Assembly (NCBI GenBank): GCA_947495685.1
Contig: CANLZY010000009.1
Span: 1-64,000, forward strand
DNA: 64,000 bases
Reading direction: 5' to 3'
Origin: an uncultured Tropicimonas sp.
Lineage (GTDB): Bacteria; Pseudomonadota; Alphaproteobacteria; Rhodobacterales; Rhodobacteraceae
The notes under the pieces were generated by a model. It was not told where the DNA came from. It saw nothing but the letters and a program-made list of their open reading frames with translations, and ran no database searches. Each line of letters opens with the position of its first letter. Positions within the stretch are counted from its first letter, which is position 1. Shown in pieces: positions 8,047 to 46,518 of the stretch. Position numbers and translations under genes: made by a program.

Positions 8047-10226
<2,180 letters not shown>

Positions 10227-10284
10227 CACGCGCCGTCTTCTTGGTAAAACGATCCGAATCCGTCCCTGAAGCCGAAAGCCCGCC

Positions 10285-11538
10285 ATGACCGTTCAAACAG
10301 ATATCCCCGCCCTGATGGCCGACATCGGGGCCCGCGCCAAGGCCGCTGCGGCCGAACTGGCCTTTGCCTCTGCCGAACGCAAGCACGCTGCCCTGATTGG
10401 TGCGGCTGAGGCCGTCTGGACCCGCCGCGCCGAGATCATCACGGCCAACGCCGAGGATCTTGAGTTTGGCCGCGCCAAGGGGCTGAGCGACGCCATGACG
10501 GACCGGCTGATGCTCGACGAGGATCGCATTCGCGGAATCGTCGATGGCCTGCGCACGGTGGCAGAGCAGAAAGACCCGGTCGGGGAAACGATCTCGGAAT
10601 GGGACATGGCCAGCGGGCTGCACATCCGCCGGGTGCGCACGCCCCTGGGGGTTGTCGGGGTGATCTACGAAAGCCGTCCCAACGTGACCGCCGACGCCGG
10701 TGCGCTGTGTCTGAAGGCCGGCAATGCGGTGATCCTGCGCGGCGGCTCGGAAAGTTTCCATTCCTCGGGGGCGATCCACGCCTGTCTCGTGGACGGTCTG
10801 ACATCGGCCGGTCTGCCCGGCGATGCAGTGCAACGGGTGCCGACCCGCGACCGCGCTGCCGTCACCGAGATGCTGCACATGGTCGATACGATCGACGTGA
10901 TCGTTCCGCGGGGCGGCAAGGGGTTGGTCGGGTTGGTACAACGCGAAGCGCGCGTCCCGGTCTTTGCCCACCTCGAAGGCATCTGCCATGTCTATGTCGA
11001 CAAGGCCGCCGATCCGGACAAGGCGCGCCGGGTCGTTCTGAACGCCAAGACACGCCGGACCGGGATCTGCGGCTCTGCCGAATGCCTGCTGGTACACCGT
11101 GATGTCGCCGCGACGCTGGGCCAACAGATCGTCGATGATCTGATGGCCGCCGGGGTCGAGGTGCGCGCGCAAGGCCTGAACGGGTCCGTCCCGGCGACAG
11201 AGGATGACTTCGGCAAAGAGTTTCTGGATATGAAGATCGCAGCGAAAGTCGTTGATAATGTTGATGAAGCCATTCAGCATATTCGCACATACGGCTCCAG
11301 CCATACCGAAGCGATCCTGACCGAGGACGACATTGCCGCAGACCGGTTTTTCCAGCGTGTCGACAGCGCAATCCTGATGCGCAACGCGTCGACTCAGTTC
11401 GCAGATGGTGGAGAGTTCGGCATGGGGGCCGAGATCGGAATTGCCACAGGCAAGATGCATGCCCGTGGCCCGGTTGGTGCCGAGCAACTGACCAGCTTCA
11501 AATACCTGGTTGATGGGGATGGCACCACGCGCCGGTAG
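10285..11538 (+). CDS. proA: Gamma-glutamyl phosphate reductase
   Basis: This 417-residue enzyme makes glutamate-5-semialdehyde with NADPH, the second step of proline synthesis. [26 protein letters not shown] and PRGGKGLV are family signatures, and Cys262 in RTGICGSAE is the catalytic thiol. The C-terminus contains [19 protein letters not shown], as in all ProA. It forms an operon with obgE and proB and ends 15 bp before the convergent chpT gene. Confidence 0.97.
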
Positions 11539-11553
11539 CCGCGCGGGGCAGGG

Positions 11554-12162
11554 TCAGAACGTCAGCCGGACCGACGTGTCGGTCTTCGATACCTCCAATG
11601 TGCGATCGATCTGCCGCAATGCTTCCGGTAGAAGGGCGAAATGAACGACCGGTGGGGTCAGTGCGGTCATGTCGCCGTCCAGCACCGCCCAATGGTCCGG
11701 GTCGATTTTCAATTTCGTGGCGGTTCCGGTGATGTTCCAGGTGCCGTCCTCCTTGGAAATCCGGACGTCGCCGCCGAAGGGCATTGCCGATTCCAGGCAC
11801 ATCAGAGCCAGGCAGGCGGGCTTGGCCTCGTCGCGCCGACATTCCGACGCCACATCCCAGGTCACCTGGAGTCGGCTGCCGGTGTAGGAATCGCGCAGGA
11901 TCGACAGGATCTCGGCCCGACCGGTGCCCTGACCCCTTGAGGCCTGCCCGAAAGCGATCCGGAAAAACCGGATACGGGCGTTGGCATTGTTGACGCTGTC
12001 CGTGATCAGCGCAACTTCCGGGGCATTGCTGCCGCCATTCGCCATCGCCAGCAGCTCCAGTCCGTTGCCAACAGCGCCGATCGGGCTGATCAGGTCGTGG
12101 CAGATGCGCGATCCGATGAGGGATGGAAGGTCGGGTCGTGTCTGATCGTGATCACTGGACAT
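11554..12162 (-). CDS. chpT: Histidine phosphotransferase ChpT
   Basis: This 202-residue protein matches ChpT, the phosphotransferase between the kinase CckA and the regulators CtrA and CpdR in alphaproteobacterial cell-cycle and motility control. His22 in SRICHDLISPIGAVGNGLEL is the phosphorylation site of the dimerisation helix. The C-terminal half is a degenerate ATPase-like fold without ATP motifs, as expected. It is convergent with proA and divergent from the small DUF3553 gene, the usual neighbourhood in Rhodobacteraceae. Confidence 0.9.
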   Translation of the reverse strand: MSSDHDQTRPDLPSLIGSRICHDLISPIGAVGNGLELLAMANGGSNAPEVALITDSVNNANARIRFFRIAFGQASRGQGTGRAEILSILRDSYTGSRLQVTWDVASECRRDEAKPACLALMCLESAMPFGGDVRISKEDGTWNITGTATKLKIDPDHWAVLDGDMTALTPPVVHFALLPEALRQIDRTLEVSKTDTSVRLTF

Positions 12163-40813: not shown

Positions 40814-42568
40814 TCAGGCTGATTCCGGCCAGGCGTCAAAGGGTTGTTTTGCCAACTGCATACTGCCATCCGCGCCTTGGTAAATATTGATCCAGGCCCG
40901 CCAGTTCGCATCGTCCGTTTCAGGGTAGTCGAGCCGATAGTGGCTGCATCGGCTTTCCGTTCGCATGAGGGAGGCGCGCAGCTTCATTTCAGCCGACAGG
41001 ACCATGTTCGACGTCTCGACCGCCAGCCGCAGCTCGTGCATGTCGGCGGCGCGAAGCATCGGCAAGTGATGGTCGCGCAGTTCTTCGACATAGGCCAGTG
41101 CGGCCCGCAACATGCTGTCTTTCTTGATGTAGAGCACGAAGTTCGGGATCATTATCCCCTGAAGAACCTGTGTTACCCAGGCAGGGCCATACCCGGCCTC
41201 ACGCCGCAAGGGGGCAAGGATTTCTTCGCGGATGCTGGTCAACTGCGTATCCGGAATGACTGTCAGCTTGGTCGACATGGCCAAATCTGCGGCGGCGGCG
41301 CCTGCAATGGCGCCCTGAACCGCCGACCCCGCCAGCGACGAACCGATCTGGGTGTAGATGCCACCGGACATGTGGGAGCCGAGCGCATCGCCCGCCGCGT
41401 ACAACCCGGGCACGGTTGATGCGCCCCGGTCGTCGATCGGCACCAGGCCTTCGGATTTGTGGATGGACATGCCCGCCGAGGCTCCCCCCATCTGCGGTGC
41501 ATCCATCGGACCGGGCGCACCACCCTTGCCGGCACCAGGCGGGCCGCCCCGACCCCCACCGAGCGGCGGAGGTCCCGCGTCACCGTCTTCGGGTGCACGG
41601 CGTTCAAACTCCGCAGGCGTCGTGGGGCCGCCGCCGATGCGACCATCGGCCAGCACTCCCGGTGGTCCACCGGGCAATGGGTTGCCAGTTTGGTAGGCGA
41701 CATAATTTGCATCGACGCCAAGGTCATGGTGCACCTCGACGCCGTTTGTCCCGGGAACTCGGTCGAACATGTCGCCCCAGTTGTCATAGCAAGCTGCCGG
41801 ATTGACCGCGCGGGTCGAATGCCCGTCATTCCATTCCTTGCCGGTGATCCGCGCGCCGATCTTGTAGGCCATGATCGAGCCATCGTGGGTCAGGTCGCAT
41901 ACCGGAAACCCGCTCGGCTTGAAGCCACCCGCGCCGGTGCACAGGATCACGGACTTGGCCCGGCACACGACGATTTCCTCGCCGTCCAGACGGAACCCCG
42001 CAGCACCGGCGATCTGGTCGTCATGCTTGATCAGGTGGGTGATCATCACTCGTTCCATCACGGGGATCTTTCGGTCCGCCATGGGTTTCAGGAAAGCCCG
42101 GTGACACAGGGTCTGATCGAAAAAACCCCAGTCTTTCAAATCTCTTGCACGATCCAGCGCATGTTCGGCAAGCTGTCGCGTGAACACCGGGTTGTTGGTG
42201 CCAAGCGCAGAGCGATTGACCTGTTCGGTGAACTCGTCAATCGACAGGGTCTCCTTGGTGGGGTCGAAGACAAAGAACCCCTTGGCAAACGGCGTCAATC
42301 CGGACGCCCCAAGGCGCCCCTTGGACACCATCAGAACCCGCGCGCCGGCATCGTGCGCCTTGACCGCTGCGAACAGGCCCGCCATTCCGCCACCGATCAC
42401 CAGCACGTCGGTGGTGTGATCCGTACCATTGACCGTGGAGGCATCGACCTGCGGTTGGTTCTGGGCCCATCCTGCCGACGCACCAACGGCCGCCAGACCT
42501 GTCAAGGCGCCACCGAACGCCAGGAACTCGCGGCGCGAGGGGCAGGGGGTGGAAACAGGTGAAGTCAT
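40814..42568 (-). CDS. Tat-exported FAD-dependent oxidoreductase (fumarate-reductase/AprA-like flavoprotein)
   Basis: This 584-residue protein has a Tat signal: SRREFLAFGGALTGLAAVGA at about residues 11-30. The FAD-binding site is VLVIGGGMAGLFAAVKAHDAG near 54-75, with GLYAAGDALGSHMSGG and GSSLAGSAVQGAIAG for the flavin near the end. This is the fold of fumarate reductase, succinate dehydrogenase and adenylylsulfate reductase flavoproteins, and the C-terminal RCSHYRLDYPETDD also fits. Residues 322-363 are a Gly/Pro-rich insert not normal in the family. There is no heme or FeS motif, so electrons must come from partners: the heme-b protein and ferredoxin encoded next to it. The substrate is unknown. 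Confidence 0.8.
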   Translation of the reverse strand: MTSPVSTPCPSRREFLAFGGALTGLAAVGASAGWAQNQPQVDASTVNGTDHTTDVLVIGGGMAGLFAAVKAHDAGARVLMVSKGRLGASGLTPFAKGFFVFDPTKETLSIDEFTEQVNRSALGTNNPVFTRQLAEHALDRARDLKDWGFFDQTLCHRAFLKPMADRKIPVMERVMITHLIKHDDQIAGAAGFRLDGEEIVVCRAKSVILCTGAGGFKPSGFPVCDLTHDGSIMAYKIGARITGKEWNDGHSTRAVNPAACYDNWGDMFDRVPGTNGVEVHHDLGVDANYVAYQTGNPLPGGPPGVLADGRIGGGPTTPAEFERRAPEDGDAGPPPLGGGRGGPPGAGKGGAPGPMDAPQMGGASAGMSIHKSEGLVPIDDRGASTVPGLYAAGDALGSHMSGGIYTQIGSSLAGSAVQGAIAGAAAADLAMSTKLTVIPDTQLTSIREEILAPLRREAGYGPAWVTQVLQGIMIPNFVLYIKKDSMLRAALAYVEELRDHHLPMLRAADMHELRLAVETSNMVLSAEMKLRASLMRTESRCSHYRLDYPETDDANWRAWINIYQGADGSMQLAKQPFDAWPESA

Positions 42569-43233
42569 GTTTTTGCTCCTTGGGGCGTCGGCGCATGGCG
42601 CGGCAGTTCTCCGTGGTACCGCCGGGCCAACAGGCCGATACCGGTGACCGCAAGCACGATGAACAGGCCACTCATCACCAGGTCGGTGTGCCGGCCAATG
42701 TCGATTGCGTGCCACAGGGCCAGCCCCACGAAGCCGGAGGCCAGACCGGCGTGGATGTATCGCCAGGTGCGGTACCGGAGCGCGAAATGCTTCATCAGGC
42801 GCAACCGGAACAGCGACGTCAGGCCGAGGGCGATCATCACCACCCAGGCCGCAAGGCCCAGAACGGTGCCCAGGTTGTCGAACGTGGTCAGCATCGTGAT
42901 GAAGGCGTCCTGCGGTCTTACCCCGGCTTCGAAGTAACGGGGCAGCACGATCAGGACGGGATGCAGCAACAGCACGCTGAGGGCGCCATAGGCGATGGCC
43001 TTGTGAAGCCATTGCAACCTGCGTGGTTGGATCTGCCCCTCGACGACCGGGTTGCAGCGGGTCAGATGGAATTGCCCCAACACCAGCGCAAACGACGACA
43101 GCGTGAGGAGCGACAAGGTCTCCTTGAGCAAGGACCTGCGCGGGGCATCGCCAATCGCATAGCAAACGAATGTCGTGGCAAGCAGCAGCATGATGGCGGC
43201 TGTGACGAGACGGGTTCCAAGGTCAGGTTTCAT
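42565..43233 (-). CDS. Membrane protein with a ferric-reductase-like heme b core
   Basis: This 222-residue protein has about six membrane segments. His77 and His91 lie 14 residues apart in one segment, and His161 and His175 lie 14 apart in another. That spacing places two hemes on either side of the membrane, as in ferric-reductase and NADPH-oxidase membrane domains. No flavin or NAD domain is present, so it only passes electrons across the membrane. It overlaps the flavoprotein by 4 bp and follows the ferredoxin by 2 bp. The role as electron conduit is inferred. Confidence 0.75.
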   Translation of the reverse strand: MKPDLGTRLVTAAIMLLLATTFVCYAIGDAPRRSLLKETLSLLTLSSFALVLGQFHLTRCNPVVEGQIQPRRLQWLHKAIAYGALSVLLLHPVLIVLPRYFEAGVRPQDAFITMLTTFDNLGTVLGLAAWVVMIALGLTSLFRLRLMKHFALRYRTWRYIHAGLASGFVGLALWHAIDIGRHTDLVMSGLFIVLAVTGIGLLARRYHGELPRHAPTPQGAKT

Positions 43234-43235
43234 GT

Positions 43236-43451
43236 CTATCCCCAGGCGACAATGACGGGGATGGTCTTGTCCGGCGATATCTCGATGGCATCGACCGGGC
43301 AGTACATCCGGCAAAGGTGGCAGATCTGGCAATCGGCGGGATAGGCGATGACTGCCTTGCCGGTGGACGGATCCAGGCGGATCACGTCGCAGGGGCAGGA
43401 TTTCACGCATTCCCCGCAACCGATACACCCGTTGATACTCTTGATGGTCAT
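43236..43451 (-). CDS. Two-cluster 4Fe-4S ferredoxin
   Basis: This 71-residue protein has two complete 4Fe-4S motifs, CIGCGECVKSCP (residues 9-20) and CQICHLCRMYCP (41-52). It has no signal peptide, so it works in the cytoplasm. It is the first gene of a three-gene operon with the heme-b membrane protein and the exported flavoprotein, and probably hands electrons to the former. Confidence 0.93.
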   Translation of the reverse strand: MTIKSINGCIGCGECVKSCPCDVIRLDPSTGKAVIAYPADCQICHLCRMYCPVDAIEISPDKTIPVIVAWG

Positions 43452-43978: not shown

Positions 43979-45339
43979 TCATGTATCGCAGCCCAGGCTG
44001 GCCACGCGTTTCGCCTTCGCAGCCTTTGCCCGTTTTGAGTTCCATCCGTCGTTGCGGCGCCCGTTGGGCGTGTAGCGTGTCTTCTGCTTTCCCGCACGGC
44101 GCTTCTTTGGAGGCGCCTCGGCCTGCTCGGCCTTGATGTGTTCCAGAACGGCGCTCAGGTGCTTGTTCTCGGTGATCGCGGCGTGGCTCACGCGCTGATC
44201 CTTGTCGAAGGCGGAGTAGGGGAGCGAGATACCTTTCCAGCGAATGTCCAGCCGCCCGTCTGCAAACTCGTAAGTACCGACGTACTTGCCAGCCAGGCCA
44301 CGGGTGATCTCGCTTTCTTGCAGGATGATCCGCTTGCGCTCGTAGGACAGCGCCAGCTGTTTGCCGACATAACGCTCGTCACGCAAACAGAAGATATCCC
44401 GCAGTCGATCTGGCCCCATGTTCAGGGCGCGGTGAAGGTTGTCAGCACGGCGCGGAACCTTGGAAAACCGTGCGTTGTAGCGTTCCATGAAGGCAGGGAG
44501 AAATGCGTTTGCAGCATCGATATCTGAAACCCCGGCAAGGCGAAGCTCCTTGACCAGCCGATCCTGCAATGTCCGGTTTGCCCGTTCCACACGCCCCTTG
44601 GCCTGGGAGGAGTTGGCGCAAAGGATCTCGATGTTCAGCTCGTTCAGGGCGCGCCCGAACTGGGTCATCCCGTGGCCGGTCCTGGCGGCCTGTTGAGCAA
44701 CCCGGAAAACGGTGTGCTTGTCGGAATAGAACGCAACCGGACGCCCATGTGCCGCCAGATACAGCTCCAGCGCCTCGAAATAGGAGAACGTGCTCTCGGA
44801 CTTCACGAAACGCAGTTGCATCAGCGTGCTGGTGGCATCGTCGATGAAGACCAGCAGCGTGCAGGACGGCGCGCGATCCTCAAACCAGCGATGATCCGAG
44901 CCGTCGATCTGGATCAGCTCGCCATAGCATTCCCGACGCAGGCGCGGCTGGTGGAAGCTCTTTCTTTGCTTCCGTGACAGCCACAGGCCATCTTCGATCA
45001 TCCATTTGCGCAATGTCTCACGCGACACTTTCAAAGAATGACGGGCTTCGAGTTGCTCAGCCGCCAACGTCGGACCAAAATCGCATAGTTCTCTCGCACC
45101 AGGTCGAGCGCGTAGACCTTCAATGAATCGCGATACCGCTTGTTCGGCGGCTTGCCTCGGGCCTTGTGCCGGATGGCCGACGGCCCATCTTCTCGGAACC
45201 GGCGCAGAAGGCGGAACACCTGGCGACGCGTGACGCACAGCAGGTTTGCTGCCGCCGCCACATCCAGCCTTCCATCCTCAACTTGGCTCAGAACCTCGAT
45301 CCGATTCAGCTCGCGCTCGCTCATCACCACCAGTCCCAT
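43979..45339 (-). pseudogene. ISNCY-type transposase, one-base frameshift
   Basis: The first part (from 45339, MGLVVMSEREL) carries a helix-turn-helix (NLLCVTRRQVFRLLRRF). Near 45082 the frame breaks: the expected ENYA-DFGPTLAAEQL continues one base off, consistent with loss of one G. The second part holds the integrase core with acidic residues in LIQIDGSDHRWFED, AFYSDKHTVF and AKGRVERANRTLQ. The site is not a typical slippery sequence, so a deletion is more likely than programmed frameshifting. Joined, the protein would be about 450 residues, normal for the family. Confidence 0.85.
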
Positions 45340-45522: not shown

Positions 45523-46518
45523 TCAGGCTGCCGCTTGGCGCTTGGAACGACGCCGCAAACCACCAAGGACAAGAACCCCGGAGCCAAGGAACATCACTGA
45601 TGTCGGAACCGGAACCAGTGCAAGGTCTCTGGCGACGGTGGCGTAGCCAAGGTCGTCAAAGCTTGCCACTGTCGTGTTCGACAGGGTCGTCGGAAGAGTA
45701 TCGAGGAACCCCGTCATGAGTTCGGGATTCTGGGAATTGCCGGTCGCCGCCAGATGGCCGGCAAACAGATCCTCGTCCCAATGCGCAAACGCTGTGCCCG
45801 GGCCGCCATTGTCTTCGACGGGAACGAACAAATCGCTGTTGCCGTACTCCCGATTGTACATGGCCAGTCCTATTTCACCTACGTACGACGTGTCTGTGCC
45901 CGAACCGTCCGTTGCGGCCACGAAGTCCCAAAACAGATCCGTGAAACCAATGACATGCGCCATCTCGTGACGGATGACGGCGGCAAAGGACCCAGCGGTT
46001 TCAAGGCCTGGAATGTCGGCCGGGTCAAAGTTCATGGCACCTGCAATCGCCACGATGACATTGGCGGGATCTGCGGCAATCCCAGTGAAACCACCTGTCG
46101 CCGCAACACTTGTGGCACCCGCAGATCCCAGAATTCCTCCAGGTCCATCGATAGTCGAAAACAGATCTGCTGTGATCTGCAGCTGTGGGAAATTGGTCGA
46201 GATGAACGCGGCAAGCACCGGGTCCTCGTACCCAAGGATGCGGGCCTCCCAAAAGGTCGCGGCATCGTCAAAGGCCGCTTGCTGCGTCACGCTGGGCGTT
46301 CCGTTGATAAAGGACACGGCAATATCGAAAATGCCGAAGCTGGCCAGGCTGCTCGTCCCGCCACCCGTCCCGGCCGACAATGACGAGATCGGCGGAAGCG
46401 CAATCGCGGTTTCCAGAGGGACTTCGTCAAAGTATCCAAACGGTGCCGCCACCGCCTCAAGTCCAAACAAAGGACAAAACGCAACGGTCAAAACAAGGCT
46501 TTTGCTATAATCTTTCAT
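45523..46518 (-). CDS. CTERM-anchored zinc metalloprotease-like protein
   Basis: This 331-residue protein has a signal peptide (to about residue 25). HEMAH at 184-188 in VIRHEMAHVIGFTD is an HExxHxxGFxD zinc site, as in leishmanolysin-like or metzincin-related peptidases. The C-terminus (302-331) has VPVPTSVMFLGSGVLVLGG followed by RRRSKR, a VPLPA-CTERM-type sorting signal cut by an exosortase. It is therefore probably exported and anchored or released at the surface. No exosortase gene is in the window. A strong terminator follows. Confidence 0.8.
   Translation of the reverse strand: MKDYSKSLVLTVAFCPLFGLEAVAAPFGYFDEVPLETAIALPPISSLSAGTGGGTSSLASFGIFDIAVSFINGTPSVTQQAAFDDAATFWEARILGYEDPVLAAFISTNFPQLQITADLFSTIDGPGGILGSAGATSVAATGGFTGIAADPANVIVAIAGAMNFDPADIPGLETAGSFAAVIRHEMAHVIGFTDLFWDFVAATDGSGTDTSYVGEIGLAMYNREYGNSDLFVPVEDNGGPGTAFAHWDEDLFAGHLAATGNSQNPELMTGFLDTLPTTLSNTTVASFDDLGYATVARDLALVPVPTSVMFLGSGVLVLGGLRRRSKRQAAA

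Follow-up and report, generated by a model that had tools for sequence, protein, structure and literature searches.

The window analysed here is a 64,000-nucleotide stretch of contig C9, part of a 5.64 Mb draft genome of an uncultured Tropicimonas sp. Our subject is a three-gene operon on its minus strand, running from 43451 to 40814, which encodes a small ferredoxin, a putative di-heme membrane protein and a flavoprotein with a twin-arginine translocation (Tat) signal. A sequence-only reading had placed three open reading frames (ORFs) of these types here, and all three were found at those coordinates and on that strand. It had also described the operon as overlapping. The single operon stands, and the flavoprotein and membrane-protein genes share 4 bases, but a gap of 2 bases separates the ferredoxin gene from the membrane-protein gene. 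The features of the operon are:

43236..43451, minus strand: dicluster 2x[4Fe-4S] ferredoxin, 71 amino acids, probable beta subunit of the flavoprotein (Pfam Fer4_7, 37.4 bits)
42565..43233, minus strand: membrane protein of ferric-reductase/NOX type, six helices, 222 amino acids (PF01794, structure model, fold matches and topology)
42709..43005, minus strand: span of the codons for His77, 91, 161 and 175, putative heme-ligand-type residues (conservation in the alignment)
40814..42568, minus strand: flavin adenine dinucleotide (FAD) protein, predicted to lie on the AprA/PAPS reductase/complex II side, 584 amino acids (Pfam, structure model, fold and profile matches)
42461..42568, minus strand: twin-arginine signal region of the flavoprotein, residues ~1-36 (72 of 73 assessable relatives)
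41495..41605, minus strand: Gly/Pro-rich insert of the flavoprotein, residues ~322-358 (low model confidence and the Gly and Pro content of relatives)
41351..41353, minus strand: codon of Thr406, the residue aligned with Arg386 of NadB, which binds carboxylate (alignment; Thr in 49/50)

A scan of GTDB contigs returned 98 pattern matches; 92 of them could be confirmed, and 80 were retained. Together with L003, which came from a search of genomes of the family, and the window itself, these 80 make up the 82 loci examined (handles beginning with L). According to the record titles, the hosts include Rhodobacterales, Desulfobacterota, Bacteroidota, Spirochaetota, Campylobacterota and gammaproteobacteria. 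A ferredoxin of the family type lies at 74 of the 82 loci and the membrane protein at 72, so the association of the three genes exceeds chance, and the co-occurrence elsewhere on which the sequence-only reading depended is confirmed. Of the 8 loci with no such ferredoxin, 7 are counted as lacking it, as cut at a contig end or as having broken genes. Some missing partners are explained by contig ends, since the flavoprotein gene starts less than 220 bases from one in L039, L063, L074 and L077. The ferredoxin occurs without a membrane-protein match in L021, L061, L062 and L065, and the flavoprotein reading frame is broken or truncated in L072 and L078.

The flavoprotein is rare: in a sample of 295 genomes from the family 2 have it, and in a sample of 385 from the class only 1 does, which is the window's own genome. 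Among named flavoproteins, that of an uncultured Tropicimonas is closest, at 76% across 562 columns. In a tree of 50 rows built by a quick method, the flavoproteins group by phylum, with 10 changes against a minimum of 6. Horizontal transfer was considered and is left unproven by this phylum-clustered tree, and the rarity indicates a patchy distribution only. No title or abstract found in the open-licence literature describes the trio, in keeping with the earlier remark that no named system has these three parts, and it is not described in the consulted passages of one article (PMC8238504).

Within the flavoprotein, Pfam recognises FAD_binding_2 (65 bits) and Succ_DH_flav_C (51 bits) and no flavin mononucleotide (FMN)-binding or cytochrome domain. 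A profile of 50 sequences run against the Protein Data Bank gave four sequences below 1e-20, namely two AprA chains (best 8e-32), SdhA (2e-29) and the alpha chain of PAPS reductase (4e-24); the catalytic residues of AprA lie outside the stretches aligned in this search. The flavoprotein model (predicted local distance difference test score, pLDDT, 78.2; predicted TM-score 0.84) has PAPS reductase and AprA as its top Foldseek hits, at query TM-scores of 0.63-0.66 and a large full-length root-mean-square deviation of 8.7-9.8 Å. The aprA equivalog cut-off is not reached (66.9 bits, cut-off 641.75). Judged from its sequence, the flavoprotein is on the AprA/PAPS reductase/complex II side of the superfamily, and its earlier comparison with urocanate reductase therefore pointed to the wrong branch.

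His250 and His370 are invariant (50/50) and align with His244 and His351 of NadB, which we take to be active-site histidine positions. The carboxylate-binding arginine of NadB is replaced by Thr406 in the alignment, and a dicarboxylate is therefore an unlikely substrate. Given the threonine at the arginine position and the AprA-like branch, reduction of urocanate or fumarate is not the leading idea. The insert has a disordered core (residues 326-355, pLDDT <50). Where a sequence pattern of our own choosing delimits it, i.e., in 45 of 50 relatives, it measures 29-62 amino acids, with a median Gly plus Pro content of 45% vs 15% elsewhere; PP is present in 44 of these 45 sequences and PPP in 29.

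The flavoprotein carries an SRREF motif, although the Pfam TAT_signal model scores below its cut-off (15.9 vs 22.7 bits). Leaving aside 9 truncated rows as not assessable, the pattern RRx(hydrophobic) is kept in 72 of 73 flavoproteins, the exception being L017. The proposed Tat signal is thus well founded, and homologs have conserved the signal peptide rather than lost it. In the spirochaete loci L035, L043, L055 and L072, genes of TatC- and TatA-like families directly follow the flavoprotein gene (TatC was verified by Pfam in L072 only). The Ilyobacter polytropus plasmid pILYOP01 (L085, 6290-12723) has a related ferredoxin and three FAD proteins, with an FMN-binding protein upstream and annotated tatA, tatC and tatA genes downstream.

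The membrane protein matches PF01794 with 42.4 bits (cut-off 28), and its model shows six main helices (pLDDT 92.9). The top nine Foldseek matches are transmembrane heme electron carriers (SpNOX, STEAP1, STEAP2, cytochrome b561 and NOX5) with probabilities of 0.99-1.00 and weak E-values (best 0.015, none below 0.001). His77, 91, 161 and 175 are conserved in 71, 72, 72 and 72 of 72 aligned proteins, and so is His182 (72/72). The two pairs, 77/91 and 161/175, are at the positions assigned to them earlier, each within one helix, and together with PF01794 they are consistent with the di-heme type of transmembrane protein that had been proposed. By analogy with NOX, His77 and His161 presumably hold the inner heme, and His91 and His175 the outer heme.

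The predicted topology of the membrane protein follows the positive-inside pattern. In 36 sequences, the number of Lys/Arg residues per sequence is 4.5 in cytoplasmic loop 2 and 5.1 in cytoplasmic loop 4, against 1.1-1.6 in the periplasmic loops 1, 3 and 5. Conservation in the same sequences is 0.63-0.67 for the periplasmic loops vs 0.24-0.52 for the cytoplasmic loops and ends, with loop and end boundaries in both comparisons set by us. Relatives share 36-49% identity with the window's membrane protein, and two fusions share 20 and 25%; pairwise identities are given because the mean column identity (26%) is depressed by the tails of these fusions. Six gammaproteobacterial loci (L059, L060, L066, L067, L068 and L075) encode a membrane protein of 453-505 amino acids. 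The only long form scanned, that of L066, contains FAD- and nicotinamide adenine dinucleotide (NAD)-binding domains and thus already has a cytosolic input. In L061, the flavoprotein gene is followed by that of a NapH-like protein (TIGR02163, 90 bits, under the cut-off of 213).

The ferredoxin is the most conserved of the three proteins, with 66-86% identity to the window's copy in 29 relatives and 51% in Ilyobacter; the flavoproteins share 60-75%. In 18 of 19 genomes searched there is one ferredoxin per trio, located at the trio by its coordinates, and the genome with two trios has two. It is retained in all six loci with the 453-505 amino acid membrane protein and in L061, where the NapH-like protein replaces the usual partner, and it is present in L021, L062 and L065 with no membrane protein adjoining. 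The beta chain of PAPS reductase aligns with it from residue 1. Since it is the most conserved component, survives the swap of the membrane partner and belongs to a system in which the conserved membrane-protein loops face the periplasm, the ferredoxin probably leaves the cytoplasm as a subunit of the flavoprotein, comparable to AprB beside AprA, and is less likely to be a cytosolic donor. The sequence-only reading, in which a cytoplasmic ferredoxin was the electron source, is disfavored by its retention beside these long and NapH-like partners and by the periplasmic position of the conserved loops.

Recurrent neighbours of the trio are two-component systems, small Spy/CpxP/LTXXQ-like proteins, Lcl_C proteins, EF-hand proteins and an exported Cys protein with a GPPPEA motif. 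Among five kinases scanned, BaeS is the best match in four (330-467 bits, below the equivalog cut-off of 500), and among four regulators BaeR is best in three (277-280 bits, below the cut-off of 380); the kinase and regulator in L061 are closest to other families. GPPP or PPPP runs occur in 8 of 160 neighbouring ORFs at 14 loci vs 1 of 376 control ORFs (Fisher p = 4e-4), ORFs within one locus not being independent. Counted by stretch, they occur at 7 of the 14 loci vs 1 of 20 control stretches from the same 14 genomes. This comparison covers 14 of the 80 loci, with hand-picked control stretches and longest-ORF calls that miss some genes. Spy is controlled by BaeSR and CpxAR and is induced by tannin, ethanol and butanol, according to part of one report (PMC8144458). 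The BaeSR-like, Spy/CpxP-like, Lcl_C, EF-hand and GPPP/PPPP neighbours suggest envelope stress, and judging from them such a role for the trio is plausible.

Small, exported-looking Cys proteins with GPPPEA or a close variant are encoded in L080 (3183-3473), L021 (5175-5483) and L108 (11676-11969), and the copies scanned have no Pfam or NCBIfam match. Genes for VTC, DUF4956 and CotH proteins also recur beside the trio, mainly in Bacteroidota; in L018, L024, L032, L041, L045, L050 and L079 (Bacteroidota and related hosts) they recur together with an outer-membrane-like protein. One example each of VTC, DUF4956 and CotH was checked with Pfam. No mechanism into which these genes fit was apparent.

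Immediately upstream of the window's own trio lies an ISNCY family transposase (43979-45339, minus strand, 410 bits, cut-off 250), overlapped by a helix-turn-helix ORF, rather than a two-component system. When the window's genome was searched with a Paracoccus kinase, a single close kinase emerged, on contig C19 (47%, E 2.5e-114). It belongs to a companion cluster (L108, G000:C19:26001-46000, at 8517-11969) comprising a BaeR-like regulator, a BaeS-like kinase, an Lcl_C protein (47.7 bits) and the GPPPEA Cys protein. The kinase is closest to BaeS and has PPPPPGG in its predicted periplasmic part, and the adjoining regulator is closest to BaeR. With the trio on C9 and these genes on C19, the companion set is present but unlinked. 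A search of this genome with a distant Lcl_C protein gave no match, although an Lcl_C protein adjoins the C19 kinase, and the miss therefore reflects a lack of sensitivity.

At E 1e-6, the GPPPEA protein is found in 3 of 295 family genomes, i.e., the window's own and two without the trio; at 1e-4 it is found in 8 of 18 trio genomes. Among alphaproteobacterial trio genomes with the own genome excluded, it is found at 1e-6 in 4 of 10, the ten being those at hand and some coming from other families, vs 2 of the 293 genomes that lack the trio (p = 9e-6). This enrichment is not independent of linkage, because in L010 and L013 at least the gene lies ~4 kb or less from the trio.

Taken together, we favor, with moderate confidence, an exported AprAB-like pair on a NOX-like heme anchor. 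The flavoprotein and ferredoxin would fold in the cytoplasm as an AprAB-like heterodimer and be exported through Tat on the flavoprotein signal, with the ferredoxin as passenger. The heterodimer would then bind the di-heme membrane protein from the periplasmic side. Supplied by quinol, or in the cytosol by a flavin or NAD(P)H donor, electrons would cross the membrane via the hemes, reach FAD by way of the two [4Fe-4S] clusters and finally reduce a periplasmic compound or protein. The system would probably form part of a BaeSR/Spy-like envelope stress response.

Several observations weigh against this proposal. A signal sequence is missing from the ferredoxin itself, which matches several PsaC chains and methanogen polyferredoxins better than it matches the PAPS reductase beta chain. 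At L027 and L070 the membrane protein and the flavoprotein are encoded with no ferredoxin match, and the genome of Desulfopila aestuarii contains no ferredoxin of the family. On the stress side, the Spy/CpxP-like neighbours score below the cut-off of LTXXQ-type models (18.2 and 19.4 vs 24.3) and reach 20.8 bits with the Spy model (cut-off 174). Of the 295 family genomes, 4 have the kinase and 2 the flavoprotein, and only the own genome has both; one genome (G134) thus has the trio without the kinase, and three have the kinase without the trio.

The points concerning the ferredoxin bear on the alternative in which a cytoplasmic ferredoxin feeds the di-heme protein, which in turn directly reduces the exported flavoprotein. 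The missing signal sequence and the two loci with only the other two genes agree with it, as does the position of the ferredoxin gene, which comes first and adjoins the membrane-protein gene in most loci. However, loci with an NAD(P)H-type fusion as membrane protein, or with no membrane protein, still have the ferredoxin; conservation of the membrane protein is low in its cytosolic loops; and a ferredoxin-type subunit is part of the closest flavoenzymes of solved structure. We therefore regard a cytoplasmic ferredoxin as doubtful, while giving it serious weight.

The exported pair could instead be a periplasmic respiratory enzyme, with reverse flow or a role in energy metabolism, that oxidises or reduces its substrate while exchanging electrons with the quinone pool as in MFR. 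This would suit the complex II-like fold, the NapH-like partner of quinol-dehydrogenase type in L061 and the many hosts that are anaerobes by record title, e.g., Desulfobacterota. However, the trio is present in aerobes as well, among them Maribacter and Roseobacter relatives, its neighbours are of stress type, and the existence of an NAD(P)H-type fusion points to flow in the direction of reduction; we consider a respiratory role unlikely.

A repair function like that of MsrPQ, acting on oxidised residues of periplasmic proteins and perhaps on the Pro-rich neighbours, appears rather improbable. In MsrPQ, too, a Tat-exported enzyme has a ferric-reductase-like heme protein as its partner in the membrane, and Spy/CpxP-like and BaeSR-like neighbours occur at trio loci. 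MsrPQ repairs Spy, under chlorite stress and under the control of BaeSR, as stated in part of one report (PMC12503329). Nevertheless, the catalytic protein of the trio is unrelated to MsrP by Pfam, and obligate anaerobes carry the trio. Even though AprA and PAPS reductase are the best profile and fold matches, a periplasmic sulfur enzyme of APS or PAPS reductase type is highly improbable, given the aprA score far below its cut-off and the implausibility of a nucleotide substrate outside the cytoplasm.

Returning to the exported pair on a heme anchor, a broader and more speculative proposal builds on the proline runs. The trio might act as reductase in an envelope pathway not yet described, one that spans phyla and is marked by GPPP/PPPP. 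Its carriers would be the sensor loop of the kinase, the GPPPEA Cys, Spy-like, EF-hand and Lcl_C proteins, and the flavoprotein insert. On the model of salivary proline-rich proteins, the shared Pro segments might bind a single class of ligand, perhaps polyphenols or quinones, for reduction by the flavoenzyme, or the Pro-rich proteins might themselves be the substrates. We hold this pathway to be a tentative idea, and a fairly unlikely one. The recurrent BaeSR/Spy-like genes and Pro-rich exported proteins offer a lead on an uncharacterised envelope redox response.

Elsewhere in the window, a Leishmanolysin-like protein (PF01457, 34 bits) is encoded at 45523-46518 on the minus strand, with a VPLPA-CTERM-like C-terminal sorting end below cut-off. 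Phosphate regulation of the trio was also considered. The trio operon converges on a gene for a PhoB-like regulator; pho genes are absent from the annotated recurrent neighbour families, the relatives not having been searched for pho genes specifically.

Compared with known systems, the pair most resembles AprBA (1jnr) and the PAPS reductase of Methanothermococcus (8a8o), in which a flavoprotein of the same fold is combined with a 2x[4Fe-4S] ferredoxin-type subunit. Those enzymes are cytosolic, whereas the trio flavoprotein bears a Tat signal and a Gly/Pro-rich insert and is paired with a membrane protein of heme type. MsrPQ shares the architecture of a Tat-exported redox enzyme with a ferric-reductase-like heme partner, as well as the link to Spy and BaeSR. 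However, MsrP is a molybdenum enzyme, while the trio enzyme is an FAD protein with a ferredoxin. NOX, STEAP and ferric reductases resemble the membrane protein in PF01794 and in the top fold matches (SpNOX, STEAP1 and NOX5), but most relatives lack a fused cytosolic FAD/NAD domain, with the fusion seen in L066 among the six long forms.

Enzymes of the flavocytochrome c or urocanate reductase type are extracytosolic members of the PF00890 superfamily, according to part of one account (PMC8238504), as the trio flavoprotein is predicted to be. The best stretch of flavocytochrome c against the trio flavoprotein covers only residues ~33-140, and Pfam detects no FMN-binding or cytochrome domain in the trio flavoprotein. 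In the MFR (SdhABE) of Wolinella, SdhA carries a Tat signal and the hydrophilic subunits are exported, as described in part of one study (PMC2680327). MFR thus resembles the trio in having a complex II-like flavoprotein with a Tat signal, and it is a precedent for the co-export of a passenger. It differs in its larger Fe-S subunit, its SdhE anchor and its reduction of fumarate, whereas the anchor of the trio is NOX-like and the carboxylate-binding position holds Thr. Because the membrane partner has been swapped between lineages, passenger export and anchor choice are directly testable. If our proposal is right, a small ferredoxin would be exported as a passenger, and the trio would represent a new wiring of an AprBA/complex II-like pair to the membrane exterior, the quinone anchor being replaced by a NOX-like heme anchor.

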